This document shows positions 2,287 to 21,930 of a DNA stretch of 21,930 bases, one piece after another. The position numbers and the translations under genes were made by a program. Source of the stretch: a virus; IMG/VR virus record IMGVR_UViG_3300025168_000768, positions 1-21,930 of that record, one strand, 5' to 3'. Below the pieces are notes generated by a model. That model had not been told where the DNA came from and searched no databases. It saw only the letters and a program-made list of their open reading frames with translations. Within the stretch, counting starts at the first letter, position 1, and each line of letters starts with the position of its first letter.

Positions 2287-3408
2287 TCAAAGTTTTTGTA
2301 AAGACCGAGACAATGAGGCAACATAGTTACCCATTTGGCCAGTTACAACAGTTTCTTCAACTTCTTCGTTTATTGGTGTTTCAGCATCAATATTAACATC
2401 CGAAGTTAATTCTTCTGTAGTTTGGTTGAAGTAGTTTTCTCTAATAATATTAATCTTAGACTTATAGTTGTCTTGACTTTCAAAGTCTACATTAGCAGCT
2501 AGATCACGAAATTTTACAATTTCACTTTCTGTCAAACCATCTGTACAACTATTAAAAGTTTTTTCACACTCAAACTCTTTTATCGTTTTGTTGAGTTCAA
2601 TGTTATTTTCAGTTTGTTCTTTAAGATCGGACTCTAGGTCATCAACTTTAGTAACAAGTTCTTCAACAACATCTACTTTCTCTTCTGGAATCTCAACATA
2701 ATGTTCTGTGAACAATGCTTTAAGTCCAGAGAGGAAATCTTCAGAAATCTCTCCACGAATACCTCTTTCAATGGCAACCTTGTTTTCTTCAATCCAAGAA
2801 CCAGTAACGTAGTCAAGATAATCGTCTAATTTAGTAGCAAGTTCTTCTGCAATCGTTTCCTTAGACTCTGCAAGTTCAGCTTCATTAGAATCTGAAATCT
2901 TTGCAAGAACTTCGTTAACCTTAGAAATTACAGCAGTCTCAAATATGATTGTTGCTTTTTCTTTAAAGCCTTCGGTAAGTTCATCTTCAGAATTGAAGAT
3001 TGCTTGAATATCTTGAGAAATGTCAATATCTTCCTTGGTGATTTTCTTGGAAGCAACTTTGACGGACTCTTCTTGTTCGTCATCATCTCCTTCCTCGTCA
3101 TCATCTCCTTCCTCGTCATCTTCGTGAGCACCTTCTAACTTCTTGACCATTTCTTGATAAGCAGCGGTGAGTTCATCTTTTTTAACTCCACGCATTTTAT
3201 CGACCATAGCGTTGATCATACCGATTTTTGTATTCGGTGCTTTCTCGCCATTTTTATTGTCACCAGCTCGAGCACTCTCAGTTGCTTTTAACTCGTCTAT
3301 TTGCTCAGATGCTTCGTCAAGAGTAGATTGTGTCTCAACAGCTTCCAAGTCCTGAGTGTCAGTATCTACAGTTTCTTCAACTGAGGCTTCTTGTTGACCA
3401 TTGGACAT
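2287..3408 (-). CDS. 22: Prohead core scaffold gp22
   Basis: 373 residues, longer than T4 gp22 (269). Position between protease gp21 and capsid gp23, very acidic composition and long predicted helical/coiled-coil stretches (about residues 120-290) identify the scaffolding core that is degraded by gp21 during head maturation. An acidic low-complexity insert of alternating DDEEGD units lies at about residues 96-113, encoded by an 18-base tandem repeat. The C-terminal end (NYVASLSRSLQKL) resembles the conserved tail of gp22 proteins, thought to contact the shell. GGGAG lies upstream of the ATG. The gene has its own late promoter at 3466-3473. The extra length comes largely from the acidic N-terminal region. 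Confidence 0.88.
   Translation of the reverse strand: MSNGQQEASVEETVDTDTQDLEAVETQSTLDEASEQIDELKATESARAGDNKNGEKAPNTKIGMINAMVDKMRGVKKDELTAAYQEMVKKLEGAHEDDEEGDDDEEGDDDEQEESVKVASKKITKEDIDISQDIQAIFNSEDELTEGFKEKATIIFETAVISKVNEVLAKISDSNEAELAESKETIAEELATKLDDYLDYVTGSWIEENKVAIERGIRGEISEDFLSGLKALFTEHYVEIPEEKVDVVEELVTKVDDLESDLKEQTENNIELNKTIKEFECEKTFNSCTDGLTESEIVKFRDLAANVDFESQDNYKSKINIIRENYFNQTTEELTSDVNIDAETPINEEVEETVVTGQMGNYVASLSRSLQKL
3077..3120 (-). repeat. 18-base tandem repeat in gp22
   Basis: The unit at 3077-3094 is repeated exactly at 3095-3112 and continues for 8 bases to 3120. It encodes the acidic hexapeptide (E/D)EGDDD in the scaffold protein. The period is a multiple of three, so copy-number change would keep the frame. 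Confidence 0.85.
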
Positions 3409-3485: not shown

Positions 3486-4139
3486 TTACAATTTATTCAG
3501 AAAATTGTTAAATAGTTTAAGTTTAGTCTCTTCGAGATTTCGACTTGAAGTACTTGATATAGTTTTCTGAATATTCTCTATTTCTTGAGGCATCCAAGTA
3601 TTATTTACCTGTATCCACTCAACACCTTCCATAATTCCCTCTACAAATGCAGATGGGGCAGAAGGGTCTGCTACAATATCCCCAGCAGTTGCAAGTTGAA
3701 AGTCACTTTGAACTTCTGCAACACCAGATTTATTATTCTTTAATGTTCCCATGCCTCTTGATGATACACCTAATGTTGCACCTTCACGCATAAGATTCTT
3801 GACTATTTCTCCCATTGGAGTACCCATGATCTTTGCACGACCTCTAAAGTCATCTCCATCTGCTTTTAATTCTTTAATCATGTGAGAAACTCTGTCGAGA
3901 TTAATGACTGGGCCTTGTGGATGTCCTAGTTCTCCGTATGCACGATTCTTTGCAACGTACTCACGATTGTATCGTGCAGTCTCTTTCTGAAGTATCTCTA
4001 CTGGATAAACTCGACCATTGCGATTCTTAATTCCACCTTGCATAAAGATGCCTTCGATGAAATATTCTTTTTCACCATCTTCTTTTGCCTCAGTGATAAG
4101 TTCAAGGGCATGGTTCTGTACTTCGCAGATGAGTTTCAT
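3486..4139 (-). CDS. 21: Prohead maturation protease gp21
   Basis: 217 residues, close to T4 gp21 (212). It is a herpesvirus-assemblin-like serine protease (family U9/S78) that sits in the prohead core and cleaves capsid and core proteins after L/I-x-E. The catalytic His is seen in GELGHPQGP (His73) and the Ser in LGVSSRGMG (Ser126 or Ser127). The conserved FIEGIFMQGG...NGRVYP at about residues 27-46 and the DDFRGRAKI strand at about 96-104 also fit the family. The start ATG lies one base past the stop of the preceding 130-aa gene, with TAGGAA inside that gene. It precedes gp22 and gp23, its substrates. Confidence 0.95.
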   Translation of the reverse strand: MKLICEVQNHALELITEAKEDGEKEYFIEGIFMQGGIKNRNGRVYPVEILQKETARYNREYVAKNRAYGELGHPQGPVINLDRVSHMIKELKADGDDFRGRAKIMGTPMGEIVKNLMREGATLGVSSRGMGTLKNNKSGVAEVQSDFQLATAGDIVADPSAPSAFVEGIMEGVEWIQVNNTWMPQEIENIQKTISSTSSRNLEETKLKLFNNFLNKL

Positions 4140-5452: not shown

Positions 5453-6658
5453 CTATGAAAAATAAGGAACTTTATATTCAGTTCCACCAATATTTATCGT
5501 GATATATCCAGCTGGATTTACCAAAAGTCTATCTGAAAACTGTACTCCTGCCTGTGTTTCTGTATTTTCAGATGTTGATGCAGTCGCAACAAGGTTTGCA
5601 GAAGCAAATTTTGTAGCAATACTTGTATTTGTATTTGCAAGTGCAGCTAAAGATGCAACATTTGCAACCTGAGCACGATCATTAACAAGAAGTGTTGTAT
5701 TCGAAACTTGCATACGATCATTGACAAGAAGTGTCGTGTTTGCAACTTGCATACGATCATTAAACAGAACAGTTGCATTTGCAACCGCAAGAAATAGTAC
5801 GTTATTTGAAGTTCCATCCTGACCTCTCCACTTTCCAGTGGCTGCATTGTATTGAAGAAACTTGTTGTTAACCTTTGCAGTTGCTCTGTCAACATCATCT
5901 AAAAACTCAAGTCTTACCTCTCCACCACCACTACTACTTCCAGCAGAAGCTGCAATACGAGACATACGATTGTCAAGTCTTTTTGATAAATCCTCTTTAA
6001 GTTTTCCGAATTGATCTACAATCGGTTCGAGAGATGGTGTATCTCCTGTATCACCTTTCTCTCCCTGATCCCCTTTATCGCCCGTTTGACCTGTCGATCC
6101 TTTTACGCCTTGCAGTCCAATAGAACCCTGTTGTCCTCTTTCACCTTGACTGCCCTTTTCCCCTGTGGGCCCTGTTTTACCTTGTACACCAGTGTCCCCT
6201 TTGATACCCTTACCTTGGATTCCCTGTATTCCTTGGTTGCCCTTTTCTCCTTGACTTCCTCTTTGACCTTCTGGGCCTTGTAGTCCCTGTATTCCTTCAT
6301 ATCCACGAAACCCTCTTGAGCCTGTGTCTCCCTTATTTCCTTGTTCACCTTTATCGCCAGTCTCTCCCTTGTCTCCCTGTGGCCCGACATTACCTGTATC
6401 ACCCTTGTCTCCTTTTAATGTACGAAGTTGTTCCGCAAGTTCTTTTGCAGAAACAGAATCACCTTTTTCGCCCTTCGTACCTTGAGGGCCTTGATCACCA
6501 GTCTCTCCCTTTTCTCCTTGTTCTGGAGTAGGAATTTCAAGAGACTCGAAAAGATTAATTGTTTCTTCTTTTAATTCTTTTGAGAGTTCTGTACGCTGTT
6601 TTTTGAGTACTCCAATAAGCGTAGAAAGTATCTTAGCATTTGCAACTTCTTGGCTCAT
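5453..6658 (-). CDS. Collagen-like virion fibre protein
   Basis: 401 residues. An N-terminal helical segment (1-46) is followed by Gly-X-Y repeats at residues 48-68 (7 triplets) and 83-207 (about 41 triplets, with one break at about 149-152). A helical linker follows (about 210-240). The C-terminal part has three 13-residue repeats of the type NTTLLVNDRMQVA and ends GYITINIGGTEYKVPYF, a short beta domain I associate with marine T4-like virion proteins. The triple-helix repeats predict a trimer that protrudes from the particle. Its location between portal and prohead genes suggests a head fibre, but it may belong to the tail. The start overlaps the preceding gene by four bases (ATGA). Confidence 0.85.
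   Translation of the reverse strand: MSQEVANAKILSTLIGVLKKQRTELSKELKEETINLFESLEIPTPEQGEKGETGDQGPQGTKGEKGDSVSAKELAEQLRTLKGDKGDTGNVGPQGDKGETGDKGEQGNKGDTGSRGFRGYEGIQGLQGPEGQRGSQGEKGNQGIQGIQGKGIKGDTGVQGKTGPTGEKGSQGERGQQGSIGLQGVKGSTGQTGDKGDQGEKGDTGDTPSLEPIVDQFGKLKEDLSKRLDNRMSRIAASAGSSSGGGEVRLEFLDDVDRATAKVNNKFLQYNAATGKWRGQDGTSNNVLFLAVANATVLFNDRMQVANTTLLVNDRMQVSNTTLLVNDRAQVANVASLAALANTNTSIATKFASANLVATASTSENTETQAGVQFSDRLLVNPAGYITINIGGTEYKVPYFS
5676..5792 (-). repeat. Three 39-base tandem repeats
   Basis: Units at 5676-5714, 5715-5753 and 5754-5792 begin CGATCATT on the plus strand and encode 13-residue copies of TTLLVNDRMQVAN type. Bases 5676-5720 match 20255-20299 in the other repeat fibre gene with a single mismatch in 45. 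Confidence 0.9.
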
Positions 6659-6924: not shown

Positions 6925-8595
6925 TCATTCCTTATCAGCCGTTGAAGATTCAGAGTTTGCAACCGACTCCATAAGATTCGTCATACTTTCAACAAGTTTT
7001 TTTTCTTCGTAACTAATTTCTTTTTCAACAACAATAGGTTCGATTCTCTTTTCTTCTTCTTTTTCTTCTTCTTCAATTGTTGGAGCAACAGGTTCAACTG
7101 CCTCTTGTTCTTCATCTTCATCATCATACGCACCAGCTTTCTCTTCGTCAGCTATTTCTTCTTCTTGTTGTTTAATATCTTCTTCATTCATTCTCAATAT
7201 GGTCTTACGAACATAATTCTCTGAGAAGTATTTTCCAACAAACTGATCTACCTCTTGTAAAAGGCCAAGTCTTTCTCTCAATATTTCAGACTCTTTTAAT
7301 TCTGTGAAATGATTGTCATCAGCAAAGTTGTATGAAATCTTTTGTTTGAGTTCTTTCCACTCACTTCTTCTTACAACACCTTTAAGTGCAAGATGTATTT
7401 CAAGCATATTGTCAAACATCTCTGAGAAACGAGAACGTAGTCTCTTAACGAATTTTGAGAACTTTACCTCATCTCTTGTAACTTCGGTGGAACGACCAAT
7501 AGAAAATTGATTTTCAGCCTCTAATCGAGATACTGGAACATTTAATGATTTATATAATCGCTTACGAAAATACTCTACATCCTCCATCTCTCCGAGGTTT
7601 TGTCCGCCAGGAAGCGTTGTAATTTCTGTGCCTCGCCCACCTTCTCTTCTAGGGAGCCAAAAGTCCTCTAGCATTGTCATAAACTTACGATCATCTCGCA
7701 CTTCACCAGTGGCTGCATCGTAGACAACTTTGTTCTTATTACGAGTCATCATGTCTCGTAAATGTTGCTCCGCTTTAATCTTTGGTAAGTTTCCTACGTC
7801 AATATAGAAAACTCTTCTCTCAGGAGCTCTTGCAAGACGATAGATGACAACTGCATCTTCCATCATTCTAAGCTGATTGAGAGGTTTAATTGATTTGTGT
7901 AGATGAGACAGAACCATATTGTTGTTCTCATCAAGTATACCAGAGTGACAATAGATGATACTGTCTGGTGCTATCTTAATTCCACCTGTTGTCTTATCAC
8001 TAATCCCTGTGTTATTGAACATATAAAATTCATTGTAACCTTTTATGATCTCGACACCTGTTTTGTTGTCAGTTGCTTTGATAGGTTCTCTCATCTTACG
8101 AATTTTACGTGGGTCAATATATCTTAACTCTTGTATTCCGAGTCGTGTTTTCTTTTTGTTGATAAGAACATGAAAATAGATACGACCATCCACATACCAG
8201 CGTCTGAACAACTCGTATGCATCATTACTAAAGTCAACAAGACCGAGTAAGTGATCAAATTCTTCTCTGATTTTATCTTTTATGGAATCAGCTATCTCAA
8301 GTCGGTCAAGTTCTATTGATACAGGAGTGTCATCATCATCTAAAACAATTGCTTCATTGATAATGTCCTGTACAGCAATATCTGCTTCGGGCTGAATAGA
8401 CATCACCCGATACTTGGTAACAAGATCAGCTTCCGTCTTTGCATTACCCTCTAAATCAAGGTATGTGCCTGTATGCCCACCACCCGATAGTTCTACGGCC
8501 CCATCCGATTGTTCTGGAGCTATAAAAGATGGTGTGAGGTCTTGCTCATCTTTGTTCGCTTGATTGCGATTGATTTGAAATCCAAATAATTCCAT
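6925..8595 (-). CDS. 20: Portal vertex protein gp20
   Basis: 556 residues (T4 gp20: 524). The dodecameric portal starts head assembly, is the DNA entry channel and joins the head to the neck. Diagnostic segments: MSIQPEADIAVQDIINEA at about residues 65-82, LVDFSNDAYELFRRWYVDGR around residue 120, and the central helical region RAPERRVFYIDVGNLP and GTEITTLPGGQNLG. The C-terminal 90 residues carry a long Glu-rich, probably disordered tail (EEEEKEEEKR) not required for the fold. GGTAGGGAAC precedes the ATG. It follows tail tube gp19 as in T4 (18-19-20). Confidence 0.96.
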   Translation of the reverse strand: MELFGFQINRNQANKDEQDLTPSFIAPEQSDGAVELSGGGHTGTYLDLEGNAKTEADLVTKYRVMSIQPEADIAVQDIINEAIVLDDDDTPVSIELDRLEIADSIKDKIREEFDHLLGLVDFSNDAYELFRRWYVDGRIYFHVLINKKKTRLGIQELRYIDPRKIRKMREPIKATDNKTGVEIIKGYNEFYMFNNTGISDKTTGGIKIAPDSIIYCHSGILDENNNMVLSHLHKSIKPLNQLRMMEDAVVIYRLARAPERRVFYIDVGNLPKIKAEQHLRDMMTRNKNKVVYDAATGEVRDDRKFMTMLEDFWLPRREGGRGTEITTLPGGQNLGEMEDVEYFRKRLYKSLNVPVSRLEAENQFSIGRSTEVTRDEVKFSKFVKRLRSRFSEMFDNMLEIHLALKGVVRRSEWKELKQKISYNFADDNHFTELKESEILRERLGLLQEVDQFVGKYFSENYVRKTILRMNEEDIKQQEEEIADEEKAGAYDDEDEEQEAVEPVAPTIEEEEKEEEKRIEPIVVEKEISYEEKKLVESMTNLMESVANSESSTADKE

Positions 8596-16360: not shown

Positions 16361-16867
16361 TTAAGCTACGAAACTTTCACCTTCTGTCCACCCACAACCT
16401 GTGAGTCCACCAGCCTGAAGTGCTTTGAGTGTTCGTATTGTCTCATCTACATTTCTTCCTGTATCGAGAGCATTAACTGTGATGGATTGAATTGTATTTT
16501 CGGGATCAACAATATATGTTGCCCTGAGACACACTTGTTCATGTTGATCAACAACTCCTAACTCACCAGAAAGTTCTAAACCAGAATCAGCAGCTAAAGT
16601 ATGACGAATATTTCTTATAAGATCGTTGTCTTTCTTCCAAGCAAGTTTACAGAACTCATTGTCTCCACTAAATCCAATAACATTGACTCCTTCATCAACG
16701 AGTCTATCCATCTCTAATATTTCTGTTGGACATATAAAAGTGAAATCTTTTGGATAGAAGTAGTATATAGTCCATCCTTCATTGAGATCATTGACCTCAA
16801 TCATTTCATTTTTATCATTCACACCATTACATTTAAACTCTGGAAAAAAGTCTCCAACACCAATCAT
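16361..16867 (-). CDS. 2-Cys peroxiredoxin (AhpC/TSA family)
   Basis: 168 residues from the ATG at 16867; GAGGAG lies 8 bases before it, while the upstream TTG at 16873 would be only 2 bases from it. Peroxiredoxins reduce hydrogen peroxide and organic peroxides in the cytoplasm. The active-site motif is complete: Pro39, Thr43 and peroxidatic Cys46 in FYPKDFTFICPTEI, and Arg115 in LRATYIVDP. A candidate resolving Cys158 sits in LTGCGWTEGE, the place of the CP-W motif of AhpC-type enzymes. Further Cys at 13, 73 and 113. No signal peptide. It follows the outer-membrane protein gene after 16 bases and precedes the gp13 promoter. The reductant (AhpF or thioredoxin) is not encoded in this window. 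Confidence 0.93.
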   Translation of the reverse strand: MIGVGDFFPEFKCNGVNDKNEMIEVNDLNEGWTIYYFYPKDFTFICPTEILEMDRLVDEGVNVIGFSGDNEFCKLAWKKDNDLIRNIRHTLAADSGLELSGELGVVDQHEQVCLRATYIVDPENTIQSITVNALDTGRNVDETIRTLKALQAGGLTGCGWTEGESFVA

Positions 16868-16883
16868 CTTCAAATCTCCTCAA

Positions 16884-17956: not shown

Positions 17957-18652
17957 TTATTTTACATTATGTATTTTTTCTTCAAGAATACATTCTGTTA
18001 ACGACTCTCTCGTTCCCAAATTACCCCTTGGAAACGTATTAAATGAAAGACTAATTCTTTCGTGACCTTCTTTCTCTATCGTTGCAACTCTGTGTGTCAA
18101 AGAAGAAGGAAATAAAATAAGTTGTCCTTCCTGTACTTGATACCACCATGAGTCACTATTATATACGTTAAACTCACTTACCTCTGGCTTTATTTGTCTA
18201 TACTCATTTCTATCAAAATATATTTTATCTGTTTCTGCATCAGTTTTAACATAAAACACACCCGATACCATAGAATTAGGATGCTCATGTTTGTGATGAT
18301 ATTCACCTGTCTTTGTAAAATTTGCCCAAGATTGAGTGATATAAAGGTCTGTTCCACTACTCATACTCATAATTCTACTTGCATACTCATTCACACATAT
18401 AGAAAAAAACTCTTTTAACTTTTTTAATTTTTTATCGTTTAAAATATAACTGTATTTAGTTGAGTGATTTCCTTCATTTAATGATTTATCCAAATTCTCA
18501 ATAAACTTAAATTCTGATTTTGTAAGCTTTCTTTTTAATCTAAAACTACCAATGGGAATTGGAAATAAATTAAAAACCTCAAGAGTTTCTGAAACTTGTA
18601 TTCCAGAAGATAAAGTACTTACAACATCAACTTTATTGTTTAAGCTTGTCAT
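17957..18652 (-). CDS. 2OG-Fe(II) oxygenase-like protein (TIGR02466 type)
   Basis: 231 residues. Members of this superfamily use 2-oxoglutarate, O2 and Fe(II) to hydroxylate substrates. The double-stranded beta-helix core is visible: QSWANFTKTGEYHHKHEHPN (107-126) with metal-binding His122 and/or His124, SGVFYV (130-135), the distal His187 in FPSSLTHRV, and Arg199 in ERISLSFN to bind 2-oxoglutarate. The N-terminal LFPIPIGSF is also typical of TIGR02466. Such genes are common in marine T4-like phages near fibre genes; substrates are unknown. It overlaps the upstream 93-aa gene by 20 bases, and GGTGA precedes the ATG. No helix or signal sequence for export is seen. Confidence 0.87.
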   Translation of the reverse strand: MTSLNNKVDVVSTLSSGIQVSETLEVFNLFPIPIGSFRLKRKLTKSEFKFIENLDKSLNEGNHSTKYSYILNDKKLKKLKEFFSICVNEYASRIMSMSSGTDLYITQSWANFTKTGEYHHKHEHPNSMVSGVFYVKTDAETDKIYFDRNEYRQIKPEVSEFNVYNSDSWWYQVQEGQLILFPSSLTHRVATIEKEGHERISLSFNTFPRGNLGTRESLTECILEEKIHNVK

Positions 18653-18914
18653 TATTTTTCACCATTCCAGCATCCTCTAATATTTGATTGTATTCTAATA
18701 CTTCTTCGTATTGGGCATCTTTCCATATAGTCTCTATATTATCTTCGAAGGCTTTTGCTTTTTTCATAACATCATAAACTTCTTCTATTGTTGGGCAAGG
18801 TCTTTCATCTTCCCAACGAGTAAATCTATCGTTTGTAATTTCCCATTTTGCCTTTGGTCGCAAAAGTTCCATTGCACTATCAATACCATATAATCTATAC
18901 ACTTTTTGTTTCAT
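18633..18914 (-). CDS. Hypothetical protein in fibre cluster
   Basis: 93 residues, charged and mostly helical. The first half (YGIDSAMELLRPKAKWEITNDRFTRWED) contains two Trp and the segment RPCPTIEEVYDVMKKAKAFE. I associate this with small proteins in marine T4-like fibre regions that may act as chaperones or tail-assembly factors, but I cannot name the family. TTGGAG lies 7 bases before the ATG. It follows the glycine-rich gene after 21 bases and overlaps the oxygenase gene, so it is part of the same operon. Confidence 0.75.
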   Translation of the reverse strand: MKQKVYRLYGIDSAMELLRPKAKWEITNDRFTRWEDERPCPTIEEVYDVMKKAKAFEDNIETIWKDAQYEEVLEYNQILEDAGMVKNNDKLKQ

Positions 18915-18935
18915 TCTATAACTCCAAATATATTT

Positions 18936-19802
18936 TTATGTTGCGGTTCTATATTTTATAATTATAACTCCAGAACCACCACTATTTCCTAATGCACCTG
19001 ATGATTGACCACCACCGCCACCGCCTCCACCGCCTAGGTTGGCTGTTCCTGCAACTGCTGTATCGTCATCTCCTGTTCCTGCTCCACCACCACCAGAACC
19101 TCCAGCAGAATCGGCAGAAGTGAAACCACCACCTCCTCCACCACCAGCGTATGTGACAGATGAACCTGTGATTGTAGAGGCTGTTCCGTTACCACCAGCT
19201 CCGCCTACTCCATTATTTCCAGGCGAACCTGCTGCACCTCCGGCAGCTGCTCCACCGCCACCACCTGCACCACCTATGTTTCCTCCATTTGTTCCACCTG
19301 GCCCACCATCACTTCCTTGTGATGGCGAAGTTGAAGGTGTGTTGCCACTTCCACCTGCTCCGCCTGAACTGGAACTGTGAGCTCCACCGCCACCAGAGCC
19401 ACCATTTCCTCCTGCTCCAGCATTAGGCCCGCCTTTGCCAAGACCACCGCCAGCAGATGCAAGAGAAACAGGACTTCCTATGGAAGAATTATTCCCAGCT
19501 GCACCAGAAGCTCCACCACGTGGGCCGTTTGCAGCTCCTCCAGCACCAATTGTAAATGTGTAAGCATCACCGCCAGTTACAGCTTGTCCTGTACCAATTC
19601 GGAATCCTCCAGCACCTCCACCGCCTCCACGATTAGAACCGCCTCCTGCTCCGCCGGCAACAATGAGATATTCTATCTCATCAACGTCAGCTGGAATAGT
19701 GAAGTCTGCTGTAGAATTAAAAGTTCGAATAGTAATAGTGCCGGCAGCTGCAGCTGATTGAGAGAGAATACCGAACTTTCCGAAACCTGTGACGAGAACC
19801 AT
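18936..19802 (-). CDS. Glycine-rich adhesin-type protein
   Basis: 288 residues. A short N-terminal region (1-45) with beta strands (ITIRTFNSTADFTIPADVDEIEYLIVAGG) leads into about 230 residues dominated by Gly, Ala and Ser (runs such as GGGGGAGGFRIGTG and GGGGGGGG), ending SGVIIIKYRT. This is the glycine-rich domain often found in phage tail-fibre tips and adhesins, thought to form polyglycine-II sandwiches as in the gp38 adhesin of T4-like phages. Its position next to fibre genes supports receptor recognition. The region is much richer in G and C than its neighbours because of GGN codons. AGGTGA precedes the ATG. The long Pro-rich frame on the other strand is only its complement. Confidence 0.8.
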   Translation of the reverse strand: MVLVTGFGKFGILSQSAAAAGTITIRTFNSTADFTIPADVDEIEYLIVAGGAGGGSNRGGGGGAGGFRIGTGQAVTGGDAYTFTIGAGGAANGPRGGASGAAGNNSSIGSPVSLASAGGGLGKGGPNAGAGGNGGSGGGGAHSSSSGGAGGSGNTPSTSPSQGSDGGPGGTNGGNIGGAGGGGGAAAGGAAGSPGNNGVGGAGGNGTASTITGSSVTYAGGGGGGGFTSADSAGGSGGGGAGTGDDDTAVAGTANLGGGGGGGGGQSSGALGNSGGSGVIIIKYRTAT

Positions 19803-19812
19803 TTTATATCAC

Positions 19813-21018
19813 CTAAGCCAAGTTACCAATAAGAATCCAAGTATTTTCTTCAAGTTTTTTGAGGGTTGCAGAAGTAAATCTGTCTGCAACTGTATTTGCA
19901 AGTTCTTTTGAAAGCAGTGTAACACCAGCTGCATTGGAAAATCCAAGTGTATTTGCAGATGCGTGAGTAAGTTCATTAACAAATGATATTTCAGAACCCA
20001 AAGGCATACCGACAGTATCGTATGCTGGTATGTGAATATTAACGGCACTTGCAGTATTGATACACCGAATAAGTTTACCATTATCAGTCAATGCAAGTGT
20101 TATATTGTTTCCACCTGATTTACGAATCGGCATACCTTGAGCTGCAATAAATGTTCCTTGAACATGAAGATTTGCAGCTGGAGCTGAATTACCAATACCA
20201 ACCGAACCTGTAAAGACAGGAGCAACTTTTGTAGCTGCATTTGCAACTTGCATACGATCATTAACAAGAAGTGTTGTATTCGCAACTTGCATACGATCAG
20301 CAATAAGTAATCTTAATGCTGTGTTTGTACCTACGAGATTTGTATTGACAAGAGTTGTTCTTGCAACTTCTGTCGCAATACGTGCATTTGTATTTCCAAG
20401 TGCAGCTAAAGCTGCAACATTTGCAACCTGTGCCCTATCAGCAATAAGTAGTCTCAACGCAGTGTTAGACCCTACGAGATTTGTATTAACAAGTGTAACT
20501 CTTGCAGTCTCTACTGCGATACTAGAATTTGTGTTCGCAAGTGCAGCCAAAGCTGCAACATTTGCAACTTGAGCCCTATCGTTAATCAATAATCTCAATG
20601 CAGTATTTGTGCCTATAAGATTTGTATTAACAAGAGTTGTTCTTGCAACTTCTGTCGCAATACGAGCATTGGTGTTACCAAGTGCAATCGTTGCTTGAAG
20701 GGTTGCACCTCCAATAGAAACTGTACCTCCTGAGAATTTAGTATTTGCTTCAACAAGAAGATTGTTACCAAGAAATCTGGTGTTTGCACTTGTGTGAGCA
20801 GAAACTGCACCACCATAAGTGTTCAATGCACCCGAAACTGTTGCGTTTGCAGTAACATTAGCTGTTTTCTTGATTGACAAAATACGACTCGTTACGTGAT
20901 TTACGCCTGTAGTATTTGCAAGAAAACTTAATTCTTCTGCGAGTTCATTATGGTCTGTACGAAACTGACCAAGTGTATTCGCAACCGCTAAACTGCCAAA
21001 TTTTGTACCAACTGCCAT
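19813..21018 (-). CDS. Repeat-containing tail fibre protein
   Basis: 401 residues. The N-terminal part has beta-helical character (residues about 40-115: VTANATVSGALNTYGGAV, NLLVEANTKFSGGTVSIGG). A tandem repeat of 47 residues follows (ALRLLINDRAQVANVAALAALANTN...ARVTLVNTNLVGSNT), with about two and a half copies at residues 105-245, then two short NDRMQVANTTLLV repeats. The C-terminal 130 residues (VGIGNSAPAANLHVQGTF..., ITLALTDNGKLIRC) are like the end domains of marine T4-like structural proteins. The pattern predicts a trimeric fibre. It shares its repeats with the collagen-like protein at 5453-6658. AGGAAG precedes the ATG. Confidence 0.82.
   Translation of the reverse strand: MAVGTKFGSLAVANTLGQFRTDHNELAEELSFLANTTGVNHVTSRILSIKKTANVTANATVSGALNTYGGAVSAHTSANTRFLGNNLLVEANTKFSGGTVSIGGATLQATIALGNTNARIATEVARTTLVNTNLIGTNTALRLLINDRAQVANVAALAALANTNSSIAVETARVTLVNTNLVGSNTALRLLIADRAQVANVAALAALGNTNARIATEVARTTLVNTNLVGTNTALRLLIADRMQVANTTLLVNDRMQVANAATKVAPVFTGSVGIGNSAPAANLHVQGTFIAAQGMPIRKSGGNNITLALTDNGKLIRCINTASAVNIHIPAYDTVGMPLGSEISFVNELTHASANTLGFSNAAGVTLLSKELANTVADRFTSATLKKLEENTWILIGNLA
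20255..20705 (-). repeat. 141-base tandem repeats plus 39-base repeats
   Basis: Coding repeats. A 141-base unit begins near 20300, again at 20441 and again at 20582 (incomplete). A 39-base unit begins at 20255 and 20294. All preserve frame and encode the repeats of the fibre protein. The two repeat types share the sequence GCATACGATCA with the 5.7-kb repeats. Confidence 0.88.
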
Positions 21019-21043
21019 AAGTTCTTCCTAAAAGTCTTTTATC

Positions 21044-21051
21044 TATTTATA
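21044..21051 (-). promoter_or_regulatory. T4-type late promoter TATAAATA
   Basis: Perfect TATAAATA preceded by T on the minus strand, 26 bases before the ATG at 21018, in the 39-base gap. It is the only perfect late promoter between here and 16331, so it probably transcribes all genes down to the peroxiredoxin. Confidence 0.75.
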
Positions 21052-21057
21052 ACACAT

Positions 21058-21930
21058 TTATATTGAGAGTGTACGAGTGGTTGAAGTTACTTGACCACCA
21101 CCACCTCCACCGCCTCCGCCACCGCCTCCTGCTCCTACAGCAAGAATTGTGACAGCAATTTCCGAACCTGTTGTTCCTTGTACATTTAATGCTCCAGAAG
21201 AAGTAAATGTATGTATAGTATTGTCACCCGAAGTAGCACTTGAACCACCTGATATAGTCAATTCAGCATCACTTGCGTCTGAAGTATCATAACTAATTAC
21301 AATTACACCAGATGCACCATTAGATCGAATACTTGACTCACCTGTTCTTGAACCACTACCTCCACCACCACGATTAGCTGTTGGAGCAGTTGGTAAATCT
21401 CCCTCATCTGGGCCACCACCACTACCACCATTACCTGTACCACCATTTCCAGCACTACCAATATTTGTACCACCGCCACCACCAGCACCATATGTAATAG
21501 AAGAACCTGTTATCGAAGATGCAGTTCCAGCACCACCAGCTCCAGCATTTGAATCTGTACTAGATGCCCCACCAGCTGCTCCGTCACCTCCACCGCCACC
21601 ACCGACTGAACCAGAACTTATTTTACCAAGACTACCATTCCATTCCGCAGATAGGTTGTTATTATTTCTACCACCTGATGCACCACCACGATAGACATTG
21701 CTTGCGTCATGGAAACCTCCACCACCCCCAATGCCAGTTACAGTTGCTATTCCACTACCCGAAAAAGTTGAACTTCCGCCCGTATACGAATATCCTGTTT
21801 CAGCAAAAGGAACTCTAGGCCCTCCTGCTCCAACTTGCACAACCCAATCTGTGCCTGAAGTACCACCACCACTTGCCATAGTTCTACGAGTGATAAACAT
21901 TAAAAGAAGTCCTGCCCCGCTGTAAATGCA
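21058..21930 (-). CDS. Glycine-rich adhesin-type protein, 5' end missing
   Basis: 290 visible residues; the frame is open through the right edge, so the ATG at 21900 is probably internal. The body has the same Gly-rich pattern as the protein at 18936-19802, ending in GVIVISYDTSD (about residue 213 of the visible part). A second unit then begins (GDNTIHTFTSSGALNVQGTT, IAVTILAVGAG) but stops after a run of 12 Gly and only 10 further residues (QVTSTTRTLSI end). This looks like a truncated duplicate of the module. The GGN codons give a G- and C-rich stretch. As a fibre-tip type protein it may mediate host recognition. Confidence 0.78.
   Translation of the reverse strand, partial: CIYSGAGLLLMFITRRTMASGGGTSGTDWVVQVGAGGPRVPFAETGYSYTGGSSTFSGSGIATVTGIGGGGGFHDASNVYRGGASGGRNNNNLSAEWNGSLGKISSGSVGGGGGGDGAAGGASSTDSNAGAGGAGTASSITGSSITYGAGGGGGTNIGSAGNGGTGNGGSGGGPDEGDLPTAPTANRGGGGSGSRTGESSIRSNGASGVIVISYDTSDASDAELTISGGSSATSGDNTIHTFTSSGALNVQGTTGSEIAVTILAVGAGGGGGGGGGGGGQVTSTTRTLSI

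Follow-up and report, generated by a model that had tools for sequence, protein, structure and literature searches.

The window, the whole 21,930-base IMG/VR record analysed here, is a fragment of the genome of an uncultured T4-like phage. Its T4-type head and tail genes follow a T4-like order (terminase, sheath, tube, portal, protease, capsid), which places the phage among the T4-like myoviruses. Profile matches identified Portal_T4, Gp23 (the major capsid protein), Peptidase_S77 (the prohead protease), T4-gp15 (the tail-sheath stabiliser), a neck protein and a T4-type terminase, and the sheath and tube genes were assigned from position alone. A gene for an AhpC/TSA-type peroxiredoxin (16361-16873, minus strand; PF00578, E 1.2e-23) lies within this structural region, with a Gcw_chp protein and a 2OG-Fe(II) oxygenase as neighbours.

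Between the portal gene (gp20, 6925-8595) and the Peptidase_S77 protease gene (gp21, 3486-4139), both recognised by profile match, sits an open reading frame for a fibre of 401 amino acids (5453-6658, minus strand). We regard it as a collagen-like phage fibre: the Pfam Collagen profile matches at 1e-22 (PF01391, 80 bits with a Pfam cut-off of 27) and PHROG assigns it as a tail fibre. The protein consists of a short N-terminal part, a Gly-X-Y collagen region, a repeat array and a small C-terminal domain. In three relatives (L016, L005 and L039) an array-bearing gene directly follows the portal gene as well, and it is visibly collagen-like in L016 and L039. The second gene of interest, hereafter the repeat fibre gene (19813-21018, minus strand), also encodes 401 amino acids and was delineated from its open reading frame, its relatives in L001-L004 and their alignment. 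It comprises a unique N-terminal part of 133 amino acids, a repeat array and a unique C-terminal domain, and Pfam and PHROG profile searches with it gave no match. Outside their arrays, the two proteins are unrelated.

Both arrays are built of 13-codon units (DRMQVANTTLLVN type, also written as the NDRMQVANTTLLV type) and of longer units, which in the repeat fibre gene measure 47 codons; short and long units end in a common DRxQVAN core. In the collagen-like gene, a first 39-nt unit (5720-5758, minus strand; DRMQVANTTLLVN, the AACACGACA variant, found also in the relative L056) is followed by a second, mobile one (5681-5719, minus strand; DRMQVSNTTLLVN, the AATACAACA variant) and by the array end DRAQVANVASLAALANTNTSIATKF (5606-5680, minus strand). 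The repeat fibre gene carries three 141-nt units that are 77-78% identical (20278-20700, minus strand) and one 39-nt unit, DRMQVANTTLLVN (20260-20298, minus strand). At most unit borders in both genes stands a core of 16-23 nt, GATCGTATGCAAGTTGC(AAA), which recurs in unrelated phages with exact runs of up to 26 nt.

The module is widespread among uncultured phages, with 1 to 26 copies per gene. At the upper end, a 923-aa fibre (L042:8565-11333, locus coordinates) holds 26 copies of the DRMQVAN unit; the synonymous sites of these units are well diverged, so homogenisation within that array is weak. Among cultured phages, the array alone found no match with the low-complexity filter on, the collagen region found generic collagen matches only, and the fibre had nothing beyond a weak match of its C-terminal part to Gordonia phages. 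A search of 84,980 prokaryote genomes with the full unit pattern gave no match. The structure of the fibre, predicted from eight sequences, came out poorly (mean pLDDT 38.6), with hints of a long helix at residues 168-260, over much of the array; a search of solved structures found no match.

The two arrays resemble each other at the level of DNA, as the initial annotation had noticed: both of the repeats it described are there, the first with one mismatch in 45 (5676-5720 and 20255-20299), the second with one in 34 (5638-5671, within the collagen array end, and 20397-20430 on the minus strand of the repeat fibre gene). The first lies in a wider match of 62 nt with 5 mismatches (5659-5720 and 20238-20299), the second in one of 78 nt with 10 mismatches (5604-5681 and 20363-20440), and an additional stretch differs at 4 of 55 positions (5705-5759 and 20245-20299). 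All of them share one codon frame and lie in the 3' parts of the two minus-strand genes, 14.5 kb apart. The second repeat is less diagnostic than the first, falling within the more widely shared QVANVAxLAAL part. The most telling element is a 42-nt unit encoding DRMQV(A/S)NTTLLVND, which differs by a single nucleotide between the repeat fibre gene (20257-20298) and the collagen-like gene (5678-5719). A 26-nt hallmark, AATACAACACTTCTTGTTAATGATCG (5676-5701, minus strand, with its copy at 20255-20280, minus strand), was searched in 2.9 million viral contigs and recovered only from L052, the L080 contig and the L001 contig, that is, in the window species only and there in both genes.

Close relatives show how such a unit comes and goes. 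Clean units of 39 nt, or 13 codons, are present or absent at homologous junctions of both genes, with sharp borders at several of these junctions. L056, 98-99% identical to the window overall, has one 39-nt unit in its collagen array and lacks the second, AATACAACA-type unit that follows the first in the window and in L052. In L080 (about 99.5% identical) the AATACAACA-type unit stands one junction earlier, ahead of the first unit, an order seen in one contig and close to its end. The 39-nt unit of the window's repeat fibre gene is of the same type and has no counterpart at this place in the fibres of L002, L003 and L004. Comparable steps occur elsewhere: the L004 fibre differs from the L003 fibre by a clean 39 nt at one junction, the L045 collagen gene differs from L081 likewise at the same kind of junction, and the inserted units of the L004 fibre and the L045 collagen gene are 3 bases apart. 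These two genes, which come from one sample and are not proven to belong to one genome, share a stretch of 144 nt with 16 mismatches, and neither has a better cross-gene match. Between the window and L002, the repeat fibre genes have 0 mismatches in 400 and 1 in 407 nt of flanking DNA (1 in 807), and these flanks enclose a rearranged array that differs by 71 substitutions in 339 positions plus 72 gap columns.

A recent exchange between the collagen-like gene and the repeat fibre gene is thus well supported, in keeping with what had initially been proposed. The idea of gene conversion needs refinement, since the junctions of the relatives record the clean gain of a 39-nt unit and not the overwriting of a tract. 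We consider it likely that short-homology or homologous recombination copied a 39-nt unit between the two arrays. Transfer could proceed through strand invasion or template switching during recombination-dependent replication, with the homology supplied by the conserved GATCGTATGCAAGTTGC(AAA) core on both sides of the gained unit, and each event would add one unit. The donor would most likely be the collagen-like gene and the recipient the repeat fibre gene: the junction lacks the unit in L002, L003 and L004, so the fibre insertion appears derived, and the collagen-like genes of the window species, L056 and L045 all carry a TTLLVND unit. The opposite direction is disfavoured. In T4-type phages, homologous recombination is highly active (PMC3016280) and also proceeds at short homologies (PMC9391042). 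A RecA/UvsX-family recombinase is encoded on the L080 contig (sister contig G007). Each unit spans a whole number of codons and the codons at the junctions agree, so an event should change only the length of the fibre rod, by 13 residues. Given that the unit is cleanly gained, lost or moved in relatives, we infer that recombination lengthens and shortens these fibres.

A rather unlikely alternative is that each gene acquired the unit on its own from a third source, either another phage or an unsequenced gene, and that the likeness reflects a shared pool and not direct copying. The window covers only a fragment and leaves much of the genome unseen, and the fibre and its neighbouring DNA are mosaic with respect to L002. 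Moreover, taken over its full length, the window's collagen array matches the L004 fibre, from another species, as closely as or slightly more closely than the fibre of its own genome (score 54 and 48, respectively), which implies that a between-phage pool is also at work. Against a third source for the unit itself, the hallmark occurs nowhere else in the 2.9 million contigs, and the L001 and L080 contigs contain no third array gene. In a comparison of eight phages or samples that each have a pair of array genes, matches between the two genes score higher within a phage than from one phage to another (permutation P 5e-5, three of the pairs being adjacent genes). For the five non-adjacent pairs the same holds at P 0.017, and for those proven to lie on one contig P is 0.17 with three genomes only, a number at which significance is unreachable. 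One could take direct copying further and regard the module, common in uncultured T4-like phages, as a portable rod cassette whose copies in several virion fibre genes of a single genome are constantly kept alike, so that two different fibres would go on changing length together in 13-residue steps. We can offer this only tentatively and lean against it. The array is in any case no universal hypervariable cassette, a notion that we rejected: in three other groups (L005-L008, L014-L017 and L009-L012) arrays and flanks are conserved to about the same degree, and rapid array turnover is therefore so far a property of the window lineage and not a general rule.

It is improbable that a conserved peptide and preferred codons, or ancient shared ancestry, produced the likeness without any exchange. 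Such an explanation draws on the wide distribution of the module, with as many as 26 copies in one gene, on the occurrence of GATCGTATGCAAGTTGC in unrelated phages, and on the distant phage L059, which differs at only 6 of 60 positions. Statistics on the longest exact match were too weak, since stretches of 22-26 nt from the core turn up elsewhere, and we replaced them with a comparison of full units; with the core common to unrelated phages, a match is diagnostic only over the full unit. Wherever the two genes encode the same amino acid in the main repeat, they also use the same codon (13 of 13); the codon usage of the phage itself would predict 6.3-7.1 (P 5e-5 to 3e-4). For the 42-nt unit, taking the better of two collagen copies, simulation puts the chance of such closeness at P 2.7e-4. 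A pattern admitting every coding of the 14 amino acids found 17 distinct codings in the 2.9 million viral contigs, yet the window's two genes are 1 nt apart. The nearest relatives of the unit in that collection are the same phage's other gene and its sisters, at 1-4 nt (2 nt from the window fibre in the case of the L080 collagen gene), and phages outside the group are at least 6 nt from the window fibre. Stretches of two units paired from other species, with up to 3 amino-acid differences, show on average 15.3 mismatches per 60 nt; the corresponding figure is 5 within the window genome, and 2-3 between the L080 collagen array and the window fibre. Mean codon identity of units across species is 0.45. 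For the 39-nt unit, identity between genes of one genome therefore exceeds identity between species at synonymous sites, as ectopic exchange or concerted evolution predicts. The excess of synonymous identity suspected at the outset is real, and the equal similarity in distant phages that would have spoken for codon constraint was not seen. Codon constraint is thus largely refuted, the more so as clean 39-nt indels require recombination.

It had also been suggested that the repeats may serve the phage as recombination sites for shuffling parts of its fibres. Programmed diversification of this kind, with dedicated sites at which fibre tips are swapped and host range changes, appears very improbable to us. 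The arrays are the crossover points when L056 and L002 are compared with the window; however, among the loci examined there is no chimera that joins the unique domains of the two genes, the arrays are stable in the three other groups, and it is the rod that varies in length and not the unique end domains. A diversity-generating retroelement was considered and rejected, as no RVT_1 match, and hence no reverse transcriptase, was found in seven records, which are fragments. A dedicated shuffling system is not supported. Finally, it is barely credible that one array is a copy of the other made in assembly, a concern raised by the repeats of this metagenome contig: two independent contigs hold arrays identical to those of the window (L001 for the fibre, L052 for the collagen-like gene), which tells us that the repeats are no assembly artefact, and each copy in the window carries private differences.

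Copying of a unit from array to array has parallels in other phages. Studies of T4-type phages from 1996 and 1998, cited in PMC6466182, reportedly describe how recombination at short, conserved DNA motifs duplicates small in-frame segments of fibres or exchanges them. The exchange is said to take place between alleles of one locus and to concern the receptor-binding part, whereas the 39-nt rod unit of the window is common to two different genes. In crAss-like phages, tail-associated BACON tandem repeats evolve by duplication and horizontal transfer of single units, as seen in metagenome contigs (PMC6949934). The window resembles them in having tandem repeat units in tail-associated proteins of a metagenome contig, but BACON is a folded domain with bacterial relatives, and the units described here have 13 or 47 residues, are weakly predicted to be helical and belong to no known family. 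The collagen-like phage fibres EPclA and EPclB contain a trimeric coiled coil, and modular mixing between prophages has been proposed for them (PMC3368898). They share with our fibre a Gly-X-Y region, a (here putative) helical rod and end domains; in contrast, no PfN or PfC domain is recognised in the window fibre, and the exchanged element is a non-collagen repeat. In T4, recombination between very short homologies yields duplications that amplify a gene locus locally (PMC9391042), whereas in the window a single unit turns up in another gene. In kind, the event is related to known tail-fibre repeat recombination, and what is new is a discrete unit common to two different fibre genes. In the window and its relatives, nature has cleanly recorded the movement of short repeat units between two distinct structural genes of the same virus, with sister strains from before and after. 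This suggests a way in which the fibres of uncultured phages may change length while keeping their ends, and the rate of exchange becomes directly measurable in virome reads.

Two glycine-rich (Gly_rich_2) genes flank the repeat fibre gene (18936-19802 and 21058-21900, both on the minus strand) and have DNA-level repeats in common (19128-19202 and 21469-21543, 79%); the pair is possibly a second case of exchange between genes. L002 and the window are strongly mosaic over 17957-21900: the fibre flanks and the gene at 21058-21900 are 99-100% identical, the gene at 17957-18652 is about 81% identical and the one at 18936-19802 can barely be aligned. At the other end of the window, in the gp22-like gene (2287-3408, minus strand), the L052 and L080 alignments both break at about 3279-3283, with some 42 extra bases, and a perfect 18-bp tandem repeat lies near this break, at 3077-3120.
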